NCBI GenBank assembly: GCA_016748015.1
Contig: JAAOMT010000034.1
Coordinates: 458,277-522,276, forward strand
Source of the DNA: Geosiphon pyriformis
Taxonomy: Eukaryota > Glomeromycota > Glomeromycetes > Archaeosporales > Geosiphonaceae
Reading direction: 5' to 3'
DNA length: 64,000 nucleotides
Positions 3,280 to 51,300 of the stretch are shown here, in pieces. The stretch's first letter is position 1. Each line of letters opens with the position of its first letter. The position numbers and the translations under genes are program-made. The notes beneath the pieces are model-generated. The model ran no database searches and was not told where the DNA came from. It saw only the letters and a program-made list of their open reading frames with translations.

Positions 3280-5187
3280 ATGGACTTGAAAGCTGCTTTT
3301 GGCAGTAGTATGTCGAATAAAAAAGCTTCTGTTGGTGCTTCTTCTGGTTCTGTCGGTGATCCCTCCTCTCAAAAAAAAAGGGTTTCCCTTCGCCATATGA
3401 ATTAGTCTGGTGATAGAAACAAAGCTGTTTTGGCCAAACCTCATTCTGGTAGGAGTCAATACTCAGATATGGAAAGTGATTCTGGTGACAGTGTTGCTGG
3501 TAGCATCTTGGCTGGTGGTGATGATGGGTCTCTTCTTGGCTCAGCTGCAACAACTCCTAAGGCAAAGAGAGTTAAGAATAATTTGAACTGCGGCTCCCTT
3601 CTTGGTTCGTTAGATTACAACATGAATGGTGATGATGGCGGTCTTCTCCCTTCTCCTCTTGGTATTTCTTTAGAAAAAATGTGGTTGGATCCCAAAATTG
3701 TTAAATCTCAAGTGGAAGTTGCTGTTAAGAAGTCCTTTGCATTAGATATTAATCTCTCAGCTGTGGAAGGCAAATTGGTGACTGCAAAAACCCAATTGAT
3801 CAGGAAATTGTTTTCAAAAATCAATGGTTTTGGGGGGGCCACTACTCCTTCAAAATTTGAAGAGATCATCAGATCGACGTTTACATCATCAAAGAGCTTG
3901 GAAAAGACCACATCATTGGCCAAGGAAAATAACATCATAGTAAACAGCAATCTTAAGAGACAAGGAATTTGCTCAGATCGGGCTGTAGTAATCAAGAAAA
4001 TTCCCATGAATATGCCAAAAGAAATGATTATTGCCGCAGTATCCGAATATGGTCAGATTGTGTCTATCAAAGTTCAGTTAATTGGGTTGTGGCAGAAGAC
4101 TGTAGTGGAGTTTGCCGAATCTAGCCAGACTGATCTGTTGACATCAAAATGGTCTTTTTTAGTTGAGAAAAATTCTGTGCGTGTGGCCAAGGCTGTGGAA
4201 GATCGTAAGACATGGGCTTTTAGGGATCAATTCAGGGCACTTCTGTTTACTTTGCCAGTAGGAATGACAGCTCATGATCTTGGGAATCTATTGGAAAGGG
4301 CTGGTGAGAAAACTTGTGTCATTAATTATTCATTGGAGACTGGCAATAGAACACGCTGTGCTGTGGTATGTTTTGAATCTGATGAAGCTATGGAATCAGT
4401 TTTTTACACAGAGCCAATCTTTGGTGGAGTGAAACTCTCATGGGCTAGGTTGGATTTGGTTCACTATGAATGGTGTGGAAAGTTCAGTCATTCTGCCCTG
4501 GAATGTGATGCTGAAGTTGCATTAGTTTCTCAGTCACCCAAGTCATTTAAAAAGCCTGCTAACTTGAATACTCATCTCCAATTGGCCAAATTATATGCTA
4601 AAAAAAAGGTTTCGATCTCTCGTCCTGTCGCTTTTGGAGGCAAATCCTGGGCCCAAGTGGTCTCAGTTGCTTCGGTTTCTCGTGGTTCTCTTGGCGGCTC
4701 TGGTTCTGGTTCTCTGCTCTTTGGTGCTTCGAGTTCTGGTGGTACCCCTTCTCCTCTCTCTATGGTTGATGCCCCTTTGGGTGTGTGTTTGGCGCATCTG
4801 AAACGCTCTGTAGAGCTTTTATCTGATCAAATTTCGAACATTCTTCTTCGTTTTGACAATCTCAGTTTGGTGCCTTTAGCTCCTCTTTCTAATATGATTC
4901 CTCCAGTGAATACTCCTCAACTGTTTGTCTCTGGTTCTCTTATGGTGGCTAACTCTGACTTGGATTTCAACATGGTATTAGACATTCCTTTGACTCAACC
5001 CATTTCTTTCCCTTCTAGCAATGATAATTCTCAATTGGGTCATAGCAGTTCCAAGGTGCTGACTTCTAAAGTTGGTGTTTTAGAGTCAAAGTTGGTTGCT
5101 CTCGATGCCTCCATTGATTCGATTTTGGCGAAGTTAGAGCAGATGTGTGCTGGTTTGGGTTCTTTGGTCCTCTCCTCATCTCAATGA
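3280..5187 (+). pseudogene. LINE copy A ORF1, RNA-binding nucleic-acid chaperone type, one in-frame stop
   Basis: ORF1 of non-LTR elements binds the element RNA. The start at 3280 (Met-Asp-Leu-Lys) matches the start of ORF1 in copy C. An in-frame TAG at 3403-3405 interrupts it after about 41 codons; the rest is open to the TGA at 5185. The middle has two RRM-like stretches: one begins with VVIKKIPMN, the second has ALLFTLPVGM as an RNP2-like strand and RCAVVCFES as an RNP1-like strand. The CCHC knuckle that is intact in copy C is scrambled here (WCGKFSHSALEC, lacking a Cys). A Ser/Gly/Leu-rich tail follows. The stop codon overlaps the ORF2 start as ATGA. Confidence 0.85.
5184..5187 (+). promoter_or_regulatory. 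ATGA stop-start overlap between LINE ORF1 and ORF2 (copy A)
   Basis: The ORF1 stop TGA (5185-5187) overlaps the ORF2 start ATG (5184-5186). The same four-base arrangement occurs in copy C although the flanking codons differ. Termination-coupled reinitiation is known for some other LINEs with overlapping stop/start codons; its use here is inference. Confidence 0.6.
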
Positions 5188-8100
5188 CCAGTTATATTTG
5201 GAAAATTGCCACGTGCAATGTTAGGGGTATGAACAATCCTGCGAAACAGAAGGATATTATTCATTGGCATAGAAAAATAAACAATATGATTTCAATTGTT
5301 ATTGAGACTAAGTTGAAAGATGGGGTTCGCCCTTGGATTATGAACAAGTTTGTTGGCATTTGGGTTTTTACTTCTGGTTTGAGTTCTGGTCACATGGGTT
5401 CTGGAGTTGCAATTATTATGAACAATTTCTTGGCTCGGCATGTGTGTAAGGTTTTAAACATTCCTGGCCAGTTTCTTTCTGTTAAGCTTCTCTTCAAAAA
5501 TAAACTGTCTGTGTTAATTTTGGGACTATATGCTGGATCATCTTTGGCAGTATGTTTCTCTTAGGTGGATGATATTAATTCTTTGATCACGAGGGCAGTA
5601 AATGAGTCTTCCTTTATCATTTTGGGTGGTAACTTCAATGAAGATGGTTCTCGCAAAAGTGTCAGCTTAAAAAAATGCTTTGATTTGGGTTTGGTCAACT
5701 CTTTGAGTGGAAGCTTGTTTGGAAAGGATGCTACGTGGAACAATTCTCGTGGAGTGGCTAAAGTTATTGATTATGTGTTTGTGTTGTCAAGTCTTGTTAA
5801 TGCAATTTTAGATCGTGATGTGTCTGGTGTCAAAGAGTATTTTGACACTGATCATAAAGCTGTTTCTGTCTCTGTGGATCTTGGTGGTTTGCTGGATGTG
5901 CAGTTAAACTCATTGTGCAATCAAGCGAATAAGGATCATTGGAAGTACAATTTTGTGAATGCTGGTGATGCCGATTGGATCAAGTTTAAAGAGGATACTT
6001 CGGCGAATGCTGCCATGCTCCATGATGAATTTTATGCTGCCAAGATATGTTTGGACCTGGACACAATATGGAGTTACCTTCACCAAGTGGTGTGTTTGTC
6101 AGCTGAGAACATTTTCAAAAAAAAATGGTTTAAGAGTTTTGACAGTGTCTATAATAGAGTATTATCCAGATTTCACAAATTAGAACTTTTGGTGTCAAAG
6201 ATTGTCAAAGCCTCTCGTCTGGTCTCTCATGAGGAATTTGTTTCTCTACTTAACACATAGAAGGAAATTGATACTGCTAATGCTTCTGTTGTGGAGTCTC
6301 TCTTTCTTTCGGGTTCTCATTTTGATGCCATTTGTTCAGCTTTGGCCAGGATAAGGAAATCTTACCGTTCATCTAAGTTGTCAGAATCAAATCATGCCAA
6401 AGAATCCCAGATCAAGTCGGCAATTGACAAGAGGATGGAGAGTTTTGAGTTGAACAAAGATCATACTGTACGTAGTGTTTTGGAACAACCCTTCCACAAG
6501 GTAGTTTTAAATCATTTGGTAGTGGGAGATGAGCTGGTGTTGGATCCTGCTCCTGTGAAGTCTAAGGTGGATGAGATTATGGAAGGCTGAACTAGAAAGT
6601 GAAGGGTGGTGCTCGACGTTAATGATGAGTGGTCTTACCAGTATTGTCCTTTAGATTATGTTTTCGACGAAGCTTTTTCTGGTGTAATGGGTGTAATCGA
6701 CTTCGACGAATTGTTTAAAGTTGTTTCCAACCTGCTGGATGACAAAGCTGCTGGCCTTTCAGGTATCTCGAATGAGCTTTGGAAACATTGCGATATTTCA
6801 GTCCTTAATATGCTCTTGGTGCTTTTGAACTCTTGCCTGTCTAAGGAATCTGTTTCTGGCCCTTGGAGAGAAGCTTGGGTTTCGATGATTCCCAAACCGT
6901 ATGAATGAGAGGGTGTTCTTACAAATACTCATCCTATTGCACTAATTGAGACAGCTCGCAAGATTCTCTCCAAAATACTCTCAGACAGGATTTCTTCAGC
7001 ATGCAGCACTTATGATGTTCTTCATGGTGACAATTTTTCGGTTTTGAAAGGTATGACGACACAGTCTCCCATTTTTGCAATTGGTTTGGTTGTTAAAAAT
7101 GCTCTGAAAAAAAACCAAGAGCTTTGGCTGGTCTTGCAGGATATGAGGAAGGCATATGATTCTGTTGGCTGGGAGCATTTGGAGAAGTGTTTGGTCAGAA
7201 TTAAAATGTGTGACAAGTTTATTCGGTTTTTTGGCAGCATTCACAGAGGTTGCACTAATCGAGTCATGACAGATTTTGGTTTGACAGATGATTATCGTGT
7301 CCATGATGGTTTAAATCAAGGAGAGGTCTTTTTTCCCCTCCTGTGGCACATTTTTTATGATCCTCTTTTGTGCGAAGTCAAGTGTCAGAAGAGTGTCTGT
7401 GAGTATAGGCTAATTTCTCATTTTGTTTCCAAGGGTGGTCATGTCGAATTGCAAGCTAGACTTTCTTCCTATTTTGCCGCTGGTGCCTTTGTTGATGATA
7501 CAATTTGGGTTGGTAGTAGTCAGAGAGCTACTCAACACATTTTGGACATTGCTAATGAGTTTTTTTGGATTAATGACATCTCAATAAACAATGACAAGAC
7601 AGTAACTATTCCTATCAATTGTAAAGTTGGAAATTCCGCTCTTTTCATTAGTGGTTCACCTATCTCTGTTGCCAAAAAAGGTGAATCCCATCAGTATTTG
7701 GGCATATTTCTGTCAACTGAGGGCCTTTCCAAACCCAGTTTAGCTAAGGTACATTCGGATGTTCGTTTTTTTACAAATTTGGTTCTGAAAAAAGCTATTT
7801 TAGATAAACAGTTCTTATATTTGGTCTCAGCAGTTCTCCAACCTATAATTAGCTACAGAACACAATTTAACTTTGTTCCTATAGGCATTTGCAACAAGTG
7901 GGATGCTATAATTCATAAGGGCCTGAAGCTCAAATCTGGACTTCCGCTTGACTTTCCTAGTGATTCGATTTACCACCCCTCCTTTTATGATTTGAGATCT
8001 TTCCTGCAGATTCAGTCTGAAGGCAAGGTTGCTTCTTTTATTAATTTTGCCAACTCTGGTGAGATTGTAGGACATTTGTTCTCTCATAAGTCTCATGACC

Positions 8101-9872
8101 TGCAGGTTTTATGTTGGCGCCCTATTCATCCGTTGAGTTCTCCTGTTCACATTCATGTTAGCGTCTCTAATAATTTTTTGGCGGGTGTGATTCGCATGCT
8201 TTATAATTGCAAATTGTCATTGGGTGGATTCTTTCCCAATTCCTTTCATGCCAATAGTGAGACACCCATGTCGACTGTTTTGGGTGAATCAGTTTTCTCT
8301 AGGTGTCTCCCTTCGCTTTGGCAGTATGGTGTGGCCTTTGTGGACCAACTTCGTGATCATTATGATACTGTCTTTGATTGGTTCACATTTAAGCGATGGA
8401 AGAAACTGGACACCCGTGGCCCTATTCCTGAGTGGTTTAGACTTTCTGCTGTGTTTTTTGCTAGTAAGGATTCCTCTCCTGCCCGCATCCCTCTTCTTGC
8501 TAATATTGGTCCCTTGAACATTCTGGGTTCCTCTGGTTTTGTGTCTGTCTGTGATTGTTTTTTGCAAGTCAATACAAAGGTGCTATTGGTCTATACTGAT
8601 GGGTCATTAAGAAATTTGGGTACGGTTGGCTGTGAAACAGGTGCTGCGGCCTTTTTCAAGGACATTGGTGTGGGTTTGGGTGTTGGCGTGTTTGGGTTGA
8701 TGTCATCTACTATGGCTGAGTTACAAGCAATTGCGTTGGCTCTCGAGTGTGTTTCTATTTTTAGTGTTGTTCATTTATTTTCGGATAGTCAGTCTGCTTT
8801 GGATGCTTGCAAATCGGAATTGGGTCTGGTGTTTCCTGATTTCTGTAATCGGTGTTGGGTTGAGTGTCAGCACATTGCCAACGTCATTTACAGTAAGGGC
8901 CTAAGAGTTAACTGGCACAAAGTCAAAGATCATTCTGGAATTTTGGGAAATGAGCATGCTGATGTGATTGCCGGTGCTGTTTTTGTTTCTAACTGGTTTC
9001 TTCCTCCTCGTCTGGATGAACACTTTTTGATGGCTGATGGCAACGTTGTTTCTGGCAATTCAAGGCACTTCATCCGTGACATTTTTCATGCCATGTATTA
9101 TGTGCATTGGGAGGTGGGGTCTGGTTCTAAATTTTTGTCTGTCGACTTGTGTGCTGATGTTGATTGGTCCCGCTCTTCTTTGGTGTGGCATCCTGATTTG
9201 CATATGGCCACCAGTTTCACTAACAAGAGTTTGGCTAATGTATGCTCTTATTTTATAAAGGCTTTGCATCATCGGTTGCCTGTGGCTGTTTGAAAATGGC
9301 TTTATAATAGACTTTATCCCAGTGTGTTGTGTTTATATTGTGGTGATATAGAGGTGTCGGATCATGTTTTTTCTTGTAAGGTCGATGATTCTGCTTGGCG
9401 TCAGTTGTTGGATTCTTACATGAACTCTTGGGAAACACTTTCTGGTTCTTCTGTTTCTTCTTTAGTTTTGTTGCAGTTGTTGTTGTCTTGTGTTTCAGGG
9501 TTCTCAGTGTCTATGGCTCTCCATAAGGGTTTTGTTTTTGATAAATGGTTCAGTGAAGCTGTTTTTGTCTTCCATAATCCCAAGGTGGCATGTTTGGAGG
9601 TCATTAATTTTGCACGTTTTCTTGGTCTCGCTTTTAGAGATGAGATCTGGTTGGTTCGGGCCAAATACTGTGCCTATATAGAAAAGCATAAACTGATTCC
9701 TTTAGATGGTTTATCTTCTATTTCGGTCTCTGGTTTGACTTCATGGCTTTCTGCTGGTGTGGTTGATTTGCTTGGTATTGATGAAGCTTTTGGTGTGCAT
9801 TTTAGTTTTTGCAAGTCTTGTATGTTTTTTTCTGGCATTGGTAATTCATCTTCTGTTTATATAACTGTGTAG
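5184..9872 (+). pseudogene. LINE copy A ORF2: endonuclease-reverse transcriptase-RNase H polyprotein with six in-frame stops
   Basis: The product would nick target DNA and copy the element RNA. Domains in order are: an AP-like endonuclease (ATCNVRGM, then IETKL; the usual GDFN is GGNFN at 5631, a catalytic Asp changed to Asn; IDYVF; TDHKAV), a reverse transcriptase with the palm motif FVDD at 7488-7499, an RNase H with YTDGS, AELQA, SDSQSA and NEHAD all present, and a C-terminal CLYC...H...C zinc motif. One frame runs through 4,689 nt with no frameshift. It is cut by TAG 5562, TAG 6258, TGA 6588, TGA 6600, TGA 6906 and TGA 9291. Copy C has Trp opposite 6258, 6588 and 6906, Gln opposite 5562, and Arg opposite 6600 and 9291. 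The element is therefore dead. Confidence 0.93.
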
Positions 9873-9881
9873 TATTGTTCT

Positions 9882-9902
9882 GACTGGCCCGAATGGCTGG
9901 TC
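9882..9902 (+). other. 3' UTR stem-loop 1 of LINE copy A
   Basis: GACTGGCC can pair over eight positions with GGCTGGTC, using two G-U pairs and a five-base loop CGAAT. It starts nine bases after the ORF2 stop. Copies B, C and D have the same stem length, loop length and distance from the stop, with pair-preserving changes. It is probably the site by which reverse transcriptase recognises the element RNA (inference from stringent-type LINEs). Confidence 0.65.
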
Positions 9903-9927
9903 ACGTGTAGAAAGTGCATGATTCATG

Positions 9928-9964
9928 CCTAGTTTAGATCATTTCTTTGATGTATAGTGCTAGG
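9928..9964 (+). other. 3' UTR stem-loop 2 of LINE copy A
   Basis: CCTAG and CTAGG close a 37-base element, with weaker ATCA/TGAT pairing inside. It starts 25 bases after stem-loop 1. The spacing is the same in the other three copies, and copy D has a perfect six-base inner stem (GAACCA/TGGTTC). Confidence 0.5.
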
Positions 9965-10009
9965 TTGTGTGTGGACCTCACTTATTAAATAAAAAAATAA
10001 ATTTATTAG

Positions 10010-10328: not shown

Positions 10329-10440
10329 GTTTTTTTTTATTTTTTTTATTTTTTTTAACGAGTGAAATCCAAATGCGACCTAGTGCTATACATCATACAA
10401 ATGATCCAAACTAGGTGTGAATTATGTACTATCTACACGT

Positions 10441-10461
10441 GACCAGCCATTCAGGCCAGTC
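10441..10461 (-). other. 3' UTR stem-loop 1 of LINE copy B
   Basis: On the element strand GACTGGCC pairs with GGCTGGTC around the loop TGAAT. It starts nine bases after the ORF2 stop, as in the other copies. Confidence 0.65.
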
Positions 10462-10470
10462 AGGACTACA

Positions 10471-11223
10471 TTATACACCTATATGTACAGAAACTGGATC
10501 TCCAATACCTGAAAAAAATGAACAAAACTTATGAAACCCGAAACCAACTCCAAAAGCCTTAGCCACCCCCAACAATCTGACCACACCAGCCAAAAACACC
10601 ATAGGCAAACCAGAAACTGAAGCAGGAGCGGAGCCATCACGTAGAATCAAACCATGCTTTTCAATAAACACTCGGTGTCTGGTCCGGACCAACCAAACAT
10701 CATCCTGAAAAGCTAGACAAAATTCATGCACAAAGCTCACAATCTTCTTAGCACCCTCCTTAGAATCTTTAAAGACCAAGACAGACTCACAAAACCATTC
10801 ATCGAAAACAAAGCCCTTACACAGAGCAACACCAATTCCAACCTCAGAAACACAAAAAGCCAAGGCCTGTAAGACACATAAAAAAGAGCGAGAAAGACCA
10901 AAAAGAGCCTCCCAAGCTGAAGCATGTGCACCCAACAAACAAGCATGGCCAACGGCATCCTGAGGACACGAAAAGACATGATCCAAAGTCTCAATGTCAC
11001 CACAAAACAGACAGACCACACTGAGGTATTTTCTATCATATAAACGCTTGCGCACAGCAACAGGAAGCTGATAATAGAGAGCCTTCATAAAGTAAGTATG
11101 ACAGCCTGCCGTGCGCATGCTGGTAAAACCAGATGCCAAGTGAGAATCGGGGTGCCACACCATAGAAGACTTAGACCAATTGATATCAGCATGCAAACTA
11201 TCATCCACAACACGAGAACCCAC
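10471..11223 (-). pseudogene. LINE copy B ORF2 C-terminal fragment (250 residues)
   Basis: The fragment aligns with the part of copy A ORF2 downstream of RNase H: the WHPDSH region, then LPVAVRKRLY, then the zinc motif CLFC-x7-H-x3-C, then the conserved EKHGLILRDG region and the C-terminus SGIGDPVSVHIGV. It has no endonuclease, reverse transcriptase or RNase H and cannot act alone. Similarity continues a little upstream of 11223, so the first codon given is just the first Met in the fragment. It supplies the Arg (VAVRKRL) that became TGA at 9291 in copy A. Confidence 0.88.
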
Positions 11224-48175: not shown

Positions 48176-48215
48176 TTATTTTTTTTTATTTTTTATGAGT
48201 GCAGCCCAACCACTA

Positions 48216-48251
48216 CCTAAGTACATAAATCAAACGAGGATCTAAATTAAG
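48216..48251 (-). other. 3' UTR stem-loop 2 of LINE copy C
   Basis: On the element strand CTTAA can pair with TTAGG (one G-U pair) to close a 36-base element. It lies 25 bases after stem-loop 1, as in the other copies. Inner pairing is weak here. Confidence 0.4.
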
Positions 48252-48276
48252 TGTGGCTCATGCATTTTCTATATGT

Positions 48277-48297
48277 GACTAGCCACTCAGGCTAATC
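48277..48297 (-). other. 3' UTR stem-loop 1 of LINE copy C
   Basis: On the element strand GATTAGCC pairs with GGCTAGTC around the loop TGAGT. Compared with copies A and B, stem position 4 is T-A instead of T-G and position 5 is A-T instead of G-T, so pairing is kept. It starts nine bases after the ORF2 stop. Confidence 0.65.
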
Positions 48298-48306
48298 AAA
48301 GCAACA

Positions 48307-51300
48307 TTACACACCTACACAGTCTACAACAGAAACACCATTTAGGAAACCAAAATCTAAACTAGACAAACATGAATACAGCCCAAAACTAACATATATG
48401 CCTAATTTAACACCGAAACCGCGGATAACATCAGAGGACCACAAGGAAAACAGACCTGAGACTGAGGGAATCGAAGAACCATCACGTGGCAAAAGATTAT
48501 GTTTCTCATAATATGCCCTCAGCTTAATAGCAGACAACCATATAAAAGAACAGTGATTCTCGGCGAAGTGTTAGACAAACCTGACAACAAGTGCACCACC
48601 ATCAGAATCAGCACCCAACCAGTGACACACGTCATCAACCCAAGATTTCAACACAAAACCTTTAGCTAGTGCCATATACAGCTCAGTAGACACAGCCGCC
48701 ATTCCCAAAAAACAAAAAACCACACCATCATCAGCACAAACACCCAATGAGTCAGCCCAATCAAGAGCAGCAGTAGACAGCAACTCTTTCTTAGCATCGT
48801 TATCAGAAAGGTAGGAGAAAGTGTGATCAGAATCCTCCAACAAGCCACACTTGATACAAGCAATGCTCGGATACTTAGAATTATACAATCTTTTCCTGGC
48901 AGCCACCAGCAAATGACAGTACAGTGCTTTCATAAAATACAAGCAGAGCGAAACCGACGTCAAGTTGGTAAAACCAGAGCTGATCTTGTCATCAAAATGC
49001 CAAACACTAAAAGTCCTAGTCCTGTCAAAACCACCATAGGAAATTGCATCCACAAAAACACTCGCACATCTGGCTTCCCAACCAACAAAGTTAACTGTAT
49101 TGAACAAAGCCTTAACAAATCGGCGAGCATTTCCAGAAACAGGCCTTCCTTCCACTCTGAAAAAATGAAAAGACACCACAGGGGTCAAAATAAAGCTAGA
49201 GGTAACAGCAAAATTGGTGTAGAAATCGGCATGCTCATTTCCAACATCACCAGAATGGCCCTTGACCTTATTCCAAGTAATTGATAAACCCTTTCTAGAA
49301 ATAATTTGACTAATATATTCCTTCTCAATCCAACATTTATCCCAAAAATCAGGACCAAACCCACCAGACCCAGAGCAGCACATGTCAAGTGATGCTTGAC
49401 TGTCCATAAACAACACAACCGAACTAGAACCAGGCACACATTCCAACACTAGAGCAATGGCTTGCAGCTTCACCAAGGTTGAAGAAAGCAACCCATTAAC
49501 ACTGATCTCAATGCTGGCATTAACCCCAGGAAAGTAAGCAGCCATATCTCTGTAAGCACCCACCAAACCCATACATTTGACAGACCCATTCATGTAAATG
49601 GTCACAGGATCCAAACCAGAAGCCAACAATTGGATATGAACATAACTAAAGTCACAAGAAACACCAGCTGAAGTGGAACAAGAAGGCGCAAACCCACCAC
49701 CTGACAAATCACCAGTACTAACAAAATTGACCAGAATAGTAAACCAAGCAGGAACTGGGCCTCTGAAGTCCAGCCTCTTCCATCGGTGAAAGATGTTCCA
49801 GGAAAAACAGGAACCATTGCGGTCCAGAATCTGGTTTACAAACACTACACCATATCACCTAAGATGTTTTGACACACATAAATAAGAATCAGAGCCCAAC
49901 ACATCCAGGACCGTCACACCACCACCAGCCCAAAAGACATCAAACATATCACCATCCAAGAACAGGTTGCATAAAACAAGGGCACATGTTACACCAGACA
50001 GAAAGCAGTCTATTGGATCTATCAGCAGTCTGATCAGAAACCAGAGAGGGTGCCTGGGCATCCAACTAGCAGCCTGCAAATCCATCACCCTATAATCAAA
50101 CAATCTGCCAAGAATTCCACCAGTATTAGCAAAACTAATTAAACTAGCCAAAAGATTCTCAGTAAGCACTTGCTCAAAAGTTCTCAAACCAAACAACTTA
50201 AGATAATGTAATGCATCACTAGAAAAGTCCTTAGGCAGGTTCGCTTTAAGCTTCAAGCCTTTTCTCAACATAACATCTCACTTATCACAGACACTCTTCA
50301 AAACACAACTAAACTGAAGCCTGTAAGAAACAATAGGCTGTAAAACAGCAGAAACCAAGTATAAAAATTGCTTTTCAGTGATGGCTTTCCTCAAAACCAC
50401 ATTCGAAAAAAACCTAACATCGGAATGGGCTTTGGCCAAGCTCGGTTTAAACAAACCATCAGATGAAATAAAAATTCCTAAGTACTGATGAGATTTCTTT
50501 CTTTTTGCAACTAAGATATTAGAACCACTAATAGAAAGTGATGCATCTTTGACTCCTTGGTTGATAGGAATAGCAACTGTTTTACTAGCATTAATAGATA
50601 TGTCGTTGACTGAGAAAAACTCGCTCACAATGTCCAATATCTTCTGTGTAGCAGATAAGCAGTTACCAATCCAAATGGTGTCATCAACAAAAGCACTGGC
50701 TGCAAAGTATGAAGTCAAATCACCCCGAGCATCCATCTTACCAGTCTTAGTAAAAAATTTTGAACTCAATCTGTACCCATACAATTGCTCATGTCTTTTT
50801 ACCTTGCAAAGTAAGAGGTCATAAAAAATTCTCCACAACAATAGTGAAAACACCTCACTCTGATCTAAGCCATCATGAACAATATATCCACTAGTGAGCC
50901 CAAAATCAGTCATTACCTGATTGGTCCGACCATTGTGTATATTTCTAAAAAATTTAATGAAGCGAGAGCACATCTTGATCCTAGCCAGACTGGCTTTAAG
51001 ATGGAACCAATCAACTGAGTCATAAGCCTTATGCATATCTTGAAGAACTAACCAAAGCTCTCTATTCTTCTCCAAAGCATCCTTAATTATTAAACCAATA
51101 ACAAAAATAGGAGTTTGTATAGACGTACCCTTTAAGACCAAAAAATTGTCACCACGCAAAACATCAAATCTACTACAGGCCAAAGAGATTCTGTCAGACA
51201 GAATCTTAGAAAGTATCTTCCTAGCAGTCTCAACCAAAGCAATAGGCTGAGTATTAGTAAGAGTTCCTTTCCAATTATATGGCTTTGGAATCATTGATAC

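Follow-up and report, generated by a model that had tools for sequence, protein, structure and literature searches.

How LINE proteins select their template RNA, and why they favour the RNA that encoded them, has been resolved so far in few cases, namely some hairpin tails and R2. In the ZfL2 LINEs, deletion or exchange of the stem-loop abolishes retrotransposition, and the ORF2 protein (ORF2p) binds its cognate stem-loop (PMC4176376). SART1 of the R1 clade is described as a stringent-type LINE, and the plant L1 family ‘monocot 1a’ (Ohshima) shows a divergence of 0.144 in its last 45 nt, against 0.570 overall, together with compensatory stem changes (PMC3747384). R2 encodes one ORF and targets rDNA for insertion; for R2Bm, target-primed reverse transcription (TPRT) is initiated only on RNAs carrying its 3′ UTR, a 248-nt region modelled as 11 or more stems, of which a 40-nt, two-stem core has been resolved on the protein (PMC10499050).

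We analysed a 64,000-nt stretch of the Geosiphon pyriformis genome, referred to here as the window, which contains four copies of one LINE 3′ end (copies A to D, Table 1). The initial annotation had described each copy as a stop codon, 9 bases, an 8-bp hairpin, 25 bases, a second hairpin, about 20 bases and an A-rich tail, and direct reading found all four in place and built to that plan. The stop codon TAG of copy A (9870–9872) is followed by 9 bases and then by hairpin 1, with GACTGGCC (9882–9889) and GGCTGGTC (9895–9902) on either side of the loop CGAAT (9890–9894); hairpin 2 and the A-rich tail come after. A degenerate hairpin-1 pattern, typed from the window and allowing up to 3 mismatches, matched only these four copies, with a mean of 0 matches in 100 dinucleotide shuffles. 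Covariance model R1, whose 72 rows include the four window copies, returned the same four and no others in the 64 kb at E values up to 10. The pair table reported for hairpin 1 proved right (pair 3, C-G or U-G; pair 4, U-G or U-A; pair 5, G-U or A-U; pair 7, C-G or U-G), and all eight pairs are formed in 4 of 4 copies; the true stem length is 9 bp, as U9881 and A9903 pair too. Calling these pairs ‘covarying’ on the strength of four copies was too strong. Each change is one-sided, of the wobble kind, and is therefore compatible with pairing, which speaks for tolerance and not for compensatory covariation.

Table 1. Coordinates of the LINE features in the window and of the helices predicted for copy A
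Feature	Position	Strand	Evidence
ORF1 of the LINE ending in copy A, 585 aa, with RRM (PF00076, E 4.3e-5)	3430..5187	+	Pfam
ORF2 frame of the same LINE; RT (PF00078) and RNase H (PF00075) within 7044-9293; six in-frame stops	5184..9872	+	Pfam, translation
Copy A, whole structured 3′ UTR module, from stop codon to start of A-rich tail	9870..9989	+	Read directly; R1 128.6 bits, E 1.2e-27, itself an R1 row
P1 5′ strand (stop-codon A and G, U, then GUUC), partner 9973-9982	9871..9880	+	RNAalifold; phylogenetic null
P2 (hairpin 1), 9-bp stem, loop CGAAU 9890-9894	9881..9903	+	Read directly; RNAalifold; phylogenetic null
P3, short 5-bp hairpin between hairpins 1 and 2	9904..9920	+	RNAalifold; weak, 96/1000 under null
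P4 (hairpin 2 extended outward): P4a 9924-9932 with 9960-9969, P4b 9935-9941 with 9948-9954	9924..9969	+	Phylogenetic null
P1 3′ strand (GGAC and CACU)	9973..9982	+	RNAalifold; phylogenetic null
7-nt linker (9983-9989) and A-rich tail	9983..10004	+	Read directly
Copy B module; upstream only the ORF2 end remains, from about 11289	10354..10473	-	Read directly; R1 match
Copy C module, ending a LINE at ~54905-48310 (minus strand, broken frames)	48191..48309	-	Read directly; R1 match
Copy D module; by eye, LINE sequence ends a short way before the stop codon	55275..55394	+	R1 match

The six in-frame stops in ORF2 indicate that the LINE ending in copy A is presumably inactive; the LINE ending in copy C is a second element, on the minus strand, and is likewise broken. 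By eye, the ORF1 of this second element contains a CCHC-like knuckle. Pfam matched only RRM, RT and RNase H, with no endonuclease domain match in the one fragment scanned; an endonuclease domain is suggested by eye. Compared with solved structures, the RT gave five sequence matches, named R2 proteins or ‘Reverse transcriptase-like protein’. Both tRNA and known RNA were ruled out, as ARAGORN returned 0 matches and Rfam 0 in the window at gathering score, with one chance-level match over the module (E 2.3).

The host genome is AT-rich (124.7 Mb in 406 contigs) and full of relatives of this LINE. A first look gave rough totals of 1468, 795, 361 and 901 candidates for the four tails, the best 40 of each being scored, and the matches were spread over many contigs. 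For the RT there were roughly 5895 such candidates; the weakest of the best 100, which were scored, are 68–70% identical. Among the RT matches listed, one (G000:C186:164296-165321) stands out by the length of its open frame, 3942 aa. An exact search for the 22-nt arbuscular-mycorrhizal 18S primer site AML2 gave 0 matches in this genome sequence, which may lack rDNA. The 150 RTs scored in a genome-wide PF00078 search were left out of the analysis.

All sequences used below come from this one genome. From 89 fetched loci and the window we collected 99 insertions; removal of 2 short fragments, 2 duplicates and 4 copies truncated inside P2 left 91, of which 72 were hand-chosen as set A1; the 19 not taken are closely related to copy A. 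Two fragments were dropped from each of sets A2 and A3. A further 75 held-out sequences, outside the derivation of the fold, were found and cut with R1, a model that contains the fold, and then realigned with MAFFT without structure. Sampling was also carried out by RT: 40 loci were hand-picked from 100 listed matches and 20 from 118, and the sequence 1.3–2.3 kb downstream was checked. The other 20 loci of the second batch of 40 were chosen by DNA similarity and not by RT. With three secondary matches left out, the RT-sampled test set comprised 52 copies.

The consensus is a single closed four-way junction of ~113 nt, supported by 166 genomic copies, which extends from within the stop codon to a point 7 nt short of the A-rich tail. 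In a helix numbering that omits a rare insertion column, the long-range stem P1 comprises 2–5/110–113 and 8–11/104–107, P2 comprises 12–20/26–34, P3 comprises 35–39/47–51, P4a comprises 55–57,59–63/91–95,98–100 and P4b comprises 66–67,69–72/79–82,84–85. The two hairpins, presented earlier as independent and at fixed spacing, are thus better described as two arms of this junction, whose long-range stem had been overlooked. The intervals treated as free spacers are mostly paired: the strands of P1 account for the 9 bases after the stop and the ~20 before the tail, P3 for the 25 between the hairpins, and the former hairpin 2 is the tip of P4. The stop-codon pair A2-U113 is formed in 165 of 166 copies. 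Stop codons are TAG in 151 copies, TAA in 14 and other in 1; among the 14 UAA-ending copies G3-C112 becomes A-C in 13 and A-U in 1, so this second stop-codon pair is not strictly kept. Position 5 of copy A (9874) is an A opposite C, and is unpaired.

RNAalifold with RIBOSUM scoring gave the same four-way junction for the 72 copies together and again for each half when a 3′-end motif was used to split them into two groups of 36. Without RIBOSUM it retained 25 pairs, 10 of them with changes on both sides: P2 and P4b were complete, P4a was half recovered, P1 kept 6 of its 8 pairs and P3 was missing. Across A1, 94.6% of cells are paired, compared with 33–40% when partners are slid by 1–3 columns, and the covariation score is 0.341 against 0.259 in shuffles (0/500); 15 pairs show changes on both sides, a number attained in 36 of 500 shuffles. 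In 69 of 166 copies, every one of the five helices has at least half of its pairs in the unconstrained minimum-energy fold; taken singly, each helix is at least half present in 59–76% of copies (P1, 73%), and in 0–2% of 56 mononucleotide-shuffled controls. The bare consensus pairs lie a median of 13.8 kcal/mol above the minimum free energy, with 4 of 166 copies within 3 kcal/mol. The minimum-energy fold of copy C is without P1 and P3, and that of copy D without P2, P3 and P4a. Stability of the window copies relative to dinucleotide shuffles is modest (z of -1.66, -1.76, -1.68 and -3.51).

We compared pairing in the genomic copies with phylogenetic nulls in which columns evolve along the tree independently of one another, each at its own rate and with its own types of change. 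Among the 166 copies, 299 of 5975 cells are unpaired, while the null expects 786 (sd 122), and none of 1000 simulations was as low. The 75 held-out sequences gave 148 of 2700 against 416 (sd 65), and the 52 RT-sampled copies 82 of 1872 against 239 (sd 49), again with 0/1000 each. Cells changed on both sides number 375 against 183 (sd 52) in the full set (1/1000) and 76 against 44 in the RT-sampled set (34/1000). The initial annotation had proposed a structured 3′ UTR of the stringent type under selection. That part is borne out, pairing in a larger alignment being kept well beyond the null, and its two-hairpin anatomy was incomplete. We conclude from these alignments that the predicted fold is maintained as a whole.

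Taken one by one, the helices are less well supported than the whole, P1 and P3 above all, and in the RT-sampled copies each of them is weak. P2 is imperfect in the 166 copies (62 of 1494 cells unpaired; null 172, sd 58; 5/1000) and ranks at 4/1000 in the held-out and 15/1000 in the RT-sampled copies. Unpaired-cell ranks for the full, held-out and RT-sampled sets are 1/1000, 0/1000 and 30/1000 for P4a and 15/1000, 19/1000 and 192/1000 for P4b. Double-changed cells are in excess in both parts of P4 among the 166 copies (P4a, 121 against 42, 6/1000; P4b, 152 against 19, 0/1000), and in P2 (673/1000) and P3 (810/1000) they stand at the null level. The comparative evidence for P2 and P4 as predicted helices is good, and that for P3 is weak (96/1000 in all copies, 156/1000 held-out, 77/1000 RT-sampled). 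The weakness of P3 suits a simpler reading, that only the two hairpins matter and that P1 and P3 are by-products of complementarity, as do the P1 ranks of 27/1000 in held-out and 91/1000 in RT-sampled copies, the latter not significant, and P1 double changes at the null level (340/1000). We consider this reading unlikely. In the full set P1 has 64 of 1327 cells unpaired against 193 (sd 60), with 1 simulation in 1000 as low; its pair 9-106 occurs as U-A in 97, C-G in 43 and U-G in 17 of 166 copies (p_G 0.0075); and the 6 of 8 P1 pairs recovered without RIBOSUM, like the presence of at least half of P1 in 73% of unconstrained folds, also argue against a by-product. The long-range stem P1 is likely to be real on this comparative evidence.

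Some sublineages depart from the consensus. One (L047, L058, L164-L169) has an extra P2 base and, by eye, an apparently re-paired P3 (in L164, AUAUGUU-GAC-AACAUAU). A third lineage with very similar tails (L134, L137-L140, L143-L145, L147, L148, L091:72-192) has a U-C mismatch at P2 pair 14-32, seen in 11 of 166 copies.

The module has defined borders, with the stop codon on its 5′ side and an A-rich or (TAA)n tail on its 3′ side; the structure lies next to the A-rich end, as in stringent-type LINE tails. Mean pairwise identity in 20-nt bins (127 sequences) is 0.73–0.82 over the module against 0.49–0.68 in the preceding 240 nt of ORF2; past the module the first 20 nt are at 0.65, and identity farther on is 0.42. 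This contrast is inflated because many copies were chosen by tail similarity. It is smaller in the 52 RT-sampled copies (module ~0.62–0.80, last 140 nt of coding sequence ~0.56–0.71), and in the 36 of these with 240 nt upstream the coding sequence is at 0.60–0.77 and the module at 0.82–0.84. The module was present at the expected offset downstream of RT in 35 of 40 loci of the first batch and in 18 of 20 of the second (17 complete and 1 cut by an assembly gap), 53 of 60 overall. Among the 7 loci lacking it, one region was short of the UTR, one element was broken off early, and at the remaining five nothing matched the LINE in the expected place, with runs of N in two of the five; none of the 7 had an intact LINE 3′ end without the module.

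Upstream of the 99 insertions, 94 had a blastn match to the window LINE within 450 nt and 5 had none. Four of the 94 are the window copies, and for L063 and L064 the matching sequence does not abut the insertion; two of the 5 have at most 2 upstream bases. No partner SINE was noticed upstream of these insertions, a sample ranked by tail similarity. Five UTR-only, 5′-truncated copies (L041, L063, L064, L067, L171), a small number that came from similarity-ranked matches, start, by eye, in apical P2 at about UTR positions 17–24, and none of the copies looked at starts in UTR positions 1–16, as if reverse transcription tended to halt at hairpin 1. The truncated copy L171 (C323:70980-71420) follows immediately on the A-rich tail of another, more diverged tail copy, a tail-into-tail insertion.

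Comparison of the copies demonstrates, at the level of sequence, that diverged lineages share a predicted module, that it keeps a fixed position between stop and tail, and that whole-structure pairing exceeds phylogenetic nulls. On these grounds the 3′ UTR is probably a single selected RNA module which, with the A-rich tail, is read by ORF2p, the element's RT, to start TPRT. We infer ORF2p to be the reader and the module to place the RNA 3′ end at the RT active site: the ORF2 protein would bind the module and, once bound, guide the A-rich terminus into the RT for TPRT, and selection would keep the fold because ORF2p must recognise it. The same evidence would suit any conserved 3′ UTR structure, since sequence does not name the binding partner, and the module starts at the stop codon; both points agree with a host-facing element acting in RNA stability, 3′-end formation, export or translation control. 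We regard such a role as improbable, given that the module lies immediately ahead of the A-rich tail at which TPRT would start, that it is common to lineages with diverged ORF2 ends, and that the LINE 3′ structures studied experimentally in PMC4176376 and PMC10499050 serve template recognition.

Evidence from individual pairs is mixed. The initial annotation had named a lack of significant covariation in a larger alignment as grounds for refutation, and the outcome depends on the test. An R-scape-like all-pairs G-test with APC and two phylogenetic nulls (129 sequences, 6786 pairs) found no pair, structural or not, at E<0.05, because a deep lineage split makes many unrelated columns correlate; its top-scoring column pairs were mostly non-structural, and by the standard set in the initial annotation its outcome is negative. 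With pair-specific nulls, 2 of 36 pairs pass Bonferroni correction in the G-test: 19-27, which is pair 7 of hairpin 1 (p_G 0.0005; C-G 105, U-G 23, G-U 13, A-U 7, U-A 3, unpaired 15), and 63-91 (G-C 88, A-U 66, G-U 9). Nine of 26 variable pairs have p_G<0.05, among them 14-32, for a non-pairing reason, the U-C mismatch in one lineage. By a pairing-aware score no single one of the 36 pairs passes Bonferroni, and the summed score is 8.57 against 4.39 (sd 1.19; 0/2000). Compensatory stem changes are therefore found in aggregate, with single pairs mixed and, by helix, an excess in P4 only. Among the 90 sequences of the larger lineage group by themselves, pairing holds up (0/500), double changes are without excess (196/500) and P2 taken singly is not significant (103/500). 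In the smaller group (39 sequences) pairing and double changes are both clear, and five pairs are unpaired at the inferred root.

The relatedness of the copies, the deep splits that correlate many columns, the mostly non-structural top hits and the finding of held-out sequences with a fold-containing model would all fit conservation of sequence by common ancestry alone, with structure arising by chance. This is very improbable, as none of 1000 simulations on the tree reached the observed whole-structure pairing, in the full, held-out and RT-sampled copies alike. Weakest of all is a stop-codon readthrough signal, by which the structure would let ribosomes run into a 19-codon extension; it draws on the arrangement of stop, short spacer and stable stem, on 19 open codons in 124 of 166 copies and on UAG in 151 of 166, but we reject it on the in-frame stops, which occur in 42 of 166 copies over the 19 codons downstream against 3 of 146 over the 19 upstream, while differences by codon position (0.27/0.32/0.41 downstream, 0.30/0.34/0.35 upstream) indicate no strong coding signal past the stop.

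Returning to recognition by ORF2p, the place of the closing stem allows a further, doubtful step. Because this stem starts at base 2 of the stop codon, a terminating ribosome would cover the P1 5′ strand and part of P2. The module could then close only after termination, beside newly released ORF2 protein. We speculate, with little confidence, that such a translation-gated recognition site could couple template choice to the RNA just translated and form the structural basis of LINE cis-preference.

A compact module with defined borders in a very large and diverse LINE population offers a clean target for probing and mutational work, and the covariance model can be used to find partner SINEs and relatives. 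The titles and abstract openings returned by searches of open-access literature, with subscription literature mostly outside their reach, mention neither a LINE tail with a four-way junction nor any 3′ structure for LINEs from arbuscular mycorrhizal fungi; the word ‘stem’ is absent from the main text of one paper on R. irregularis transposons.

Among the described systems, the R2 3′ UTR resembles the present module as a multi-stem 3′ UTR RNA, which in R2 is required for TPRT. The elements differ in build: in place of the single ORF of the R2 clade, the present LINE has two separate frames, ORF1 encoding an RRM and ORF2 encoding RT and RNase H, and the likeness to R2 RNA is no claim of homology. 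The ‘monocot 1a’ tail is similar in that the 3′ end is conserved in a LINE family that has diverged elsewhere; it is one hairpin of ~50 nt common to SINEs (PMC3747384), whereas here there is a multi-helix module, with no SINE noticed. Closest are the stringent-type tails of UnaL2, ZfL2-1/ZfL2-2 and SART1, which have in common with it a paired 3′-terminal RNA structure near a repetitive or A-rich LINE end and ORF2p as the proposed reader. In ZfL2 the recognised element is a stem-loop with specificity in the loop (PMC4176376), in contrast to the ~113-nt closed four-way junction predicted here. Judged from sequence, the module is most likely an elaborate variant of known LINE 3′ recognition structures. 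Its extent sets it apart from known tails: several helices are closed into one predicted module, and pairing begins within the stop codon.
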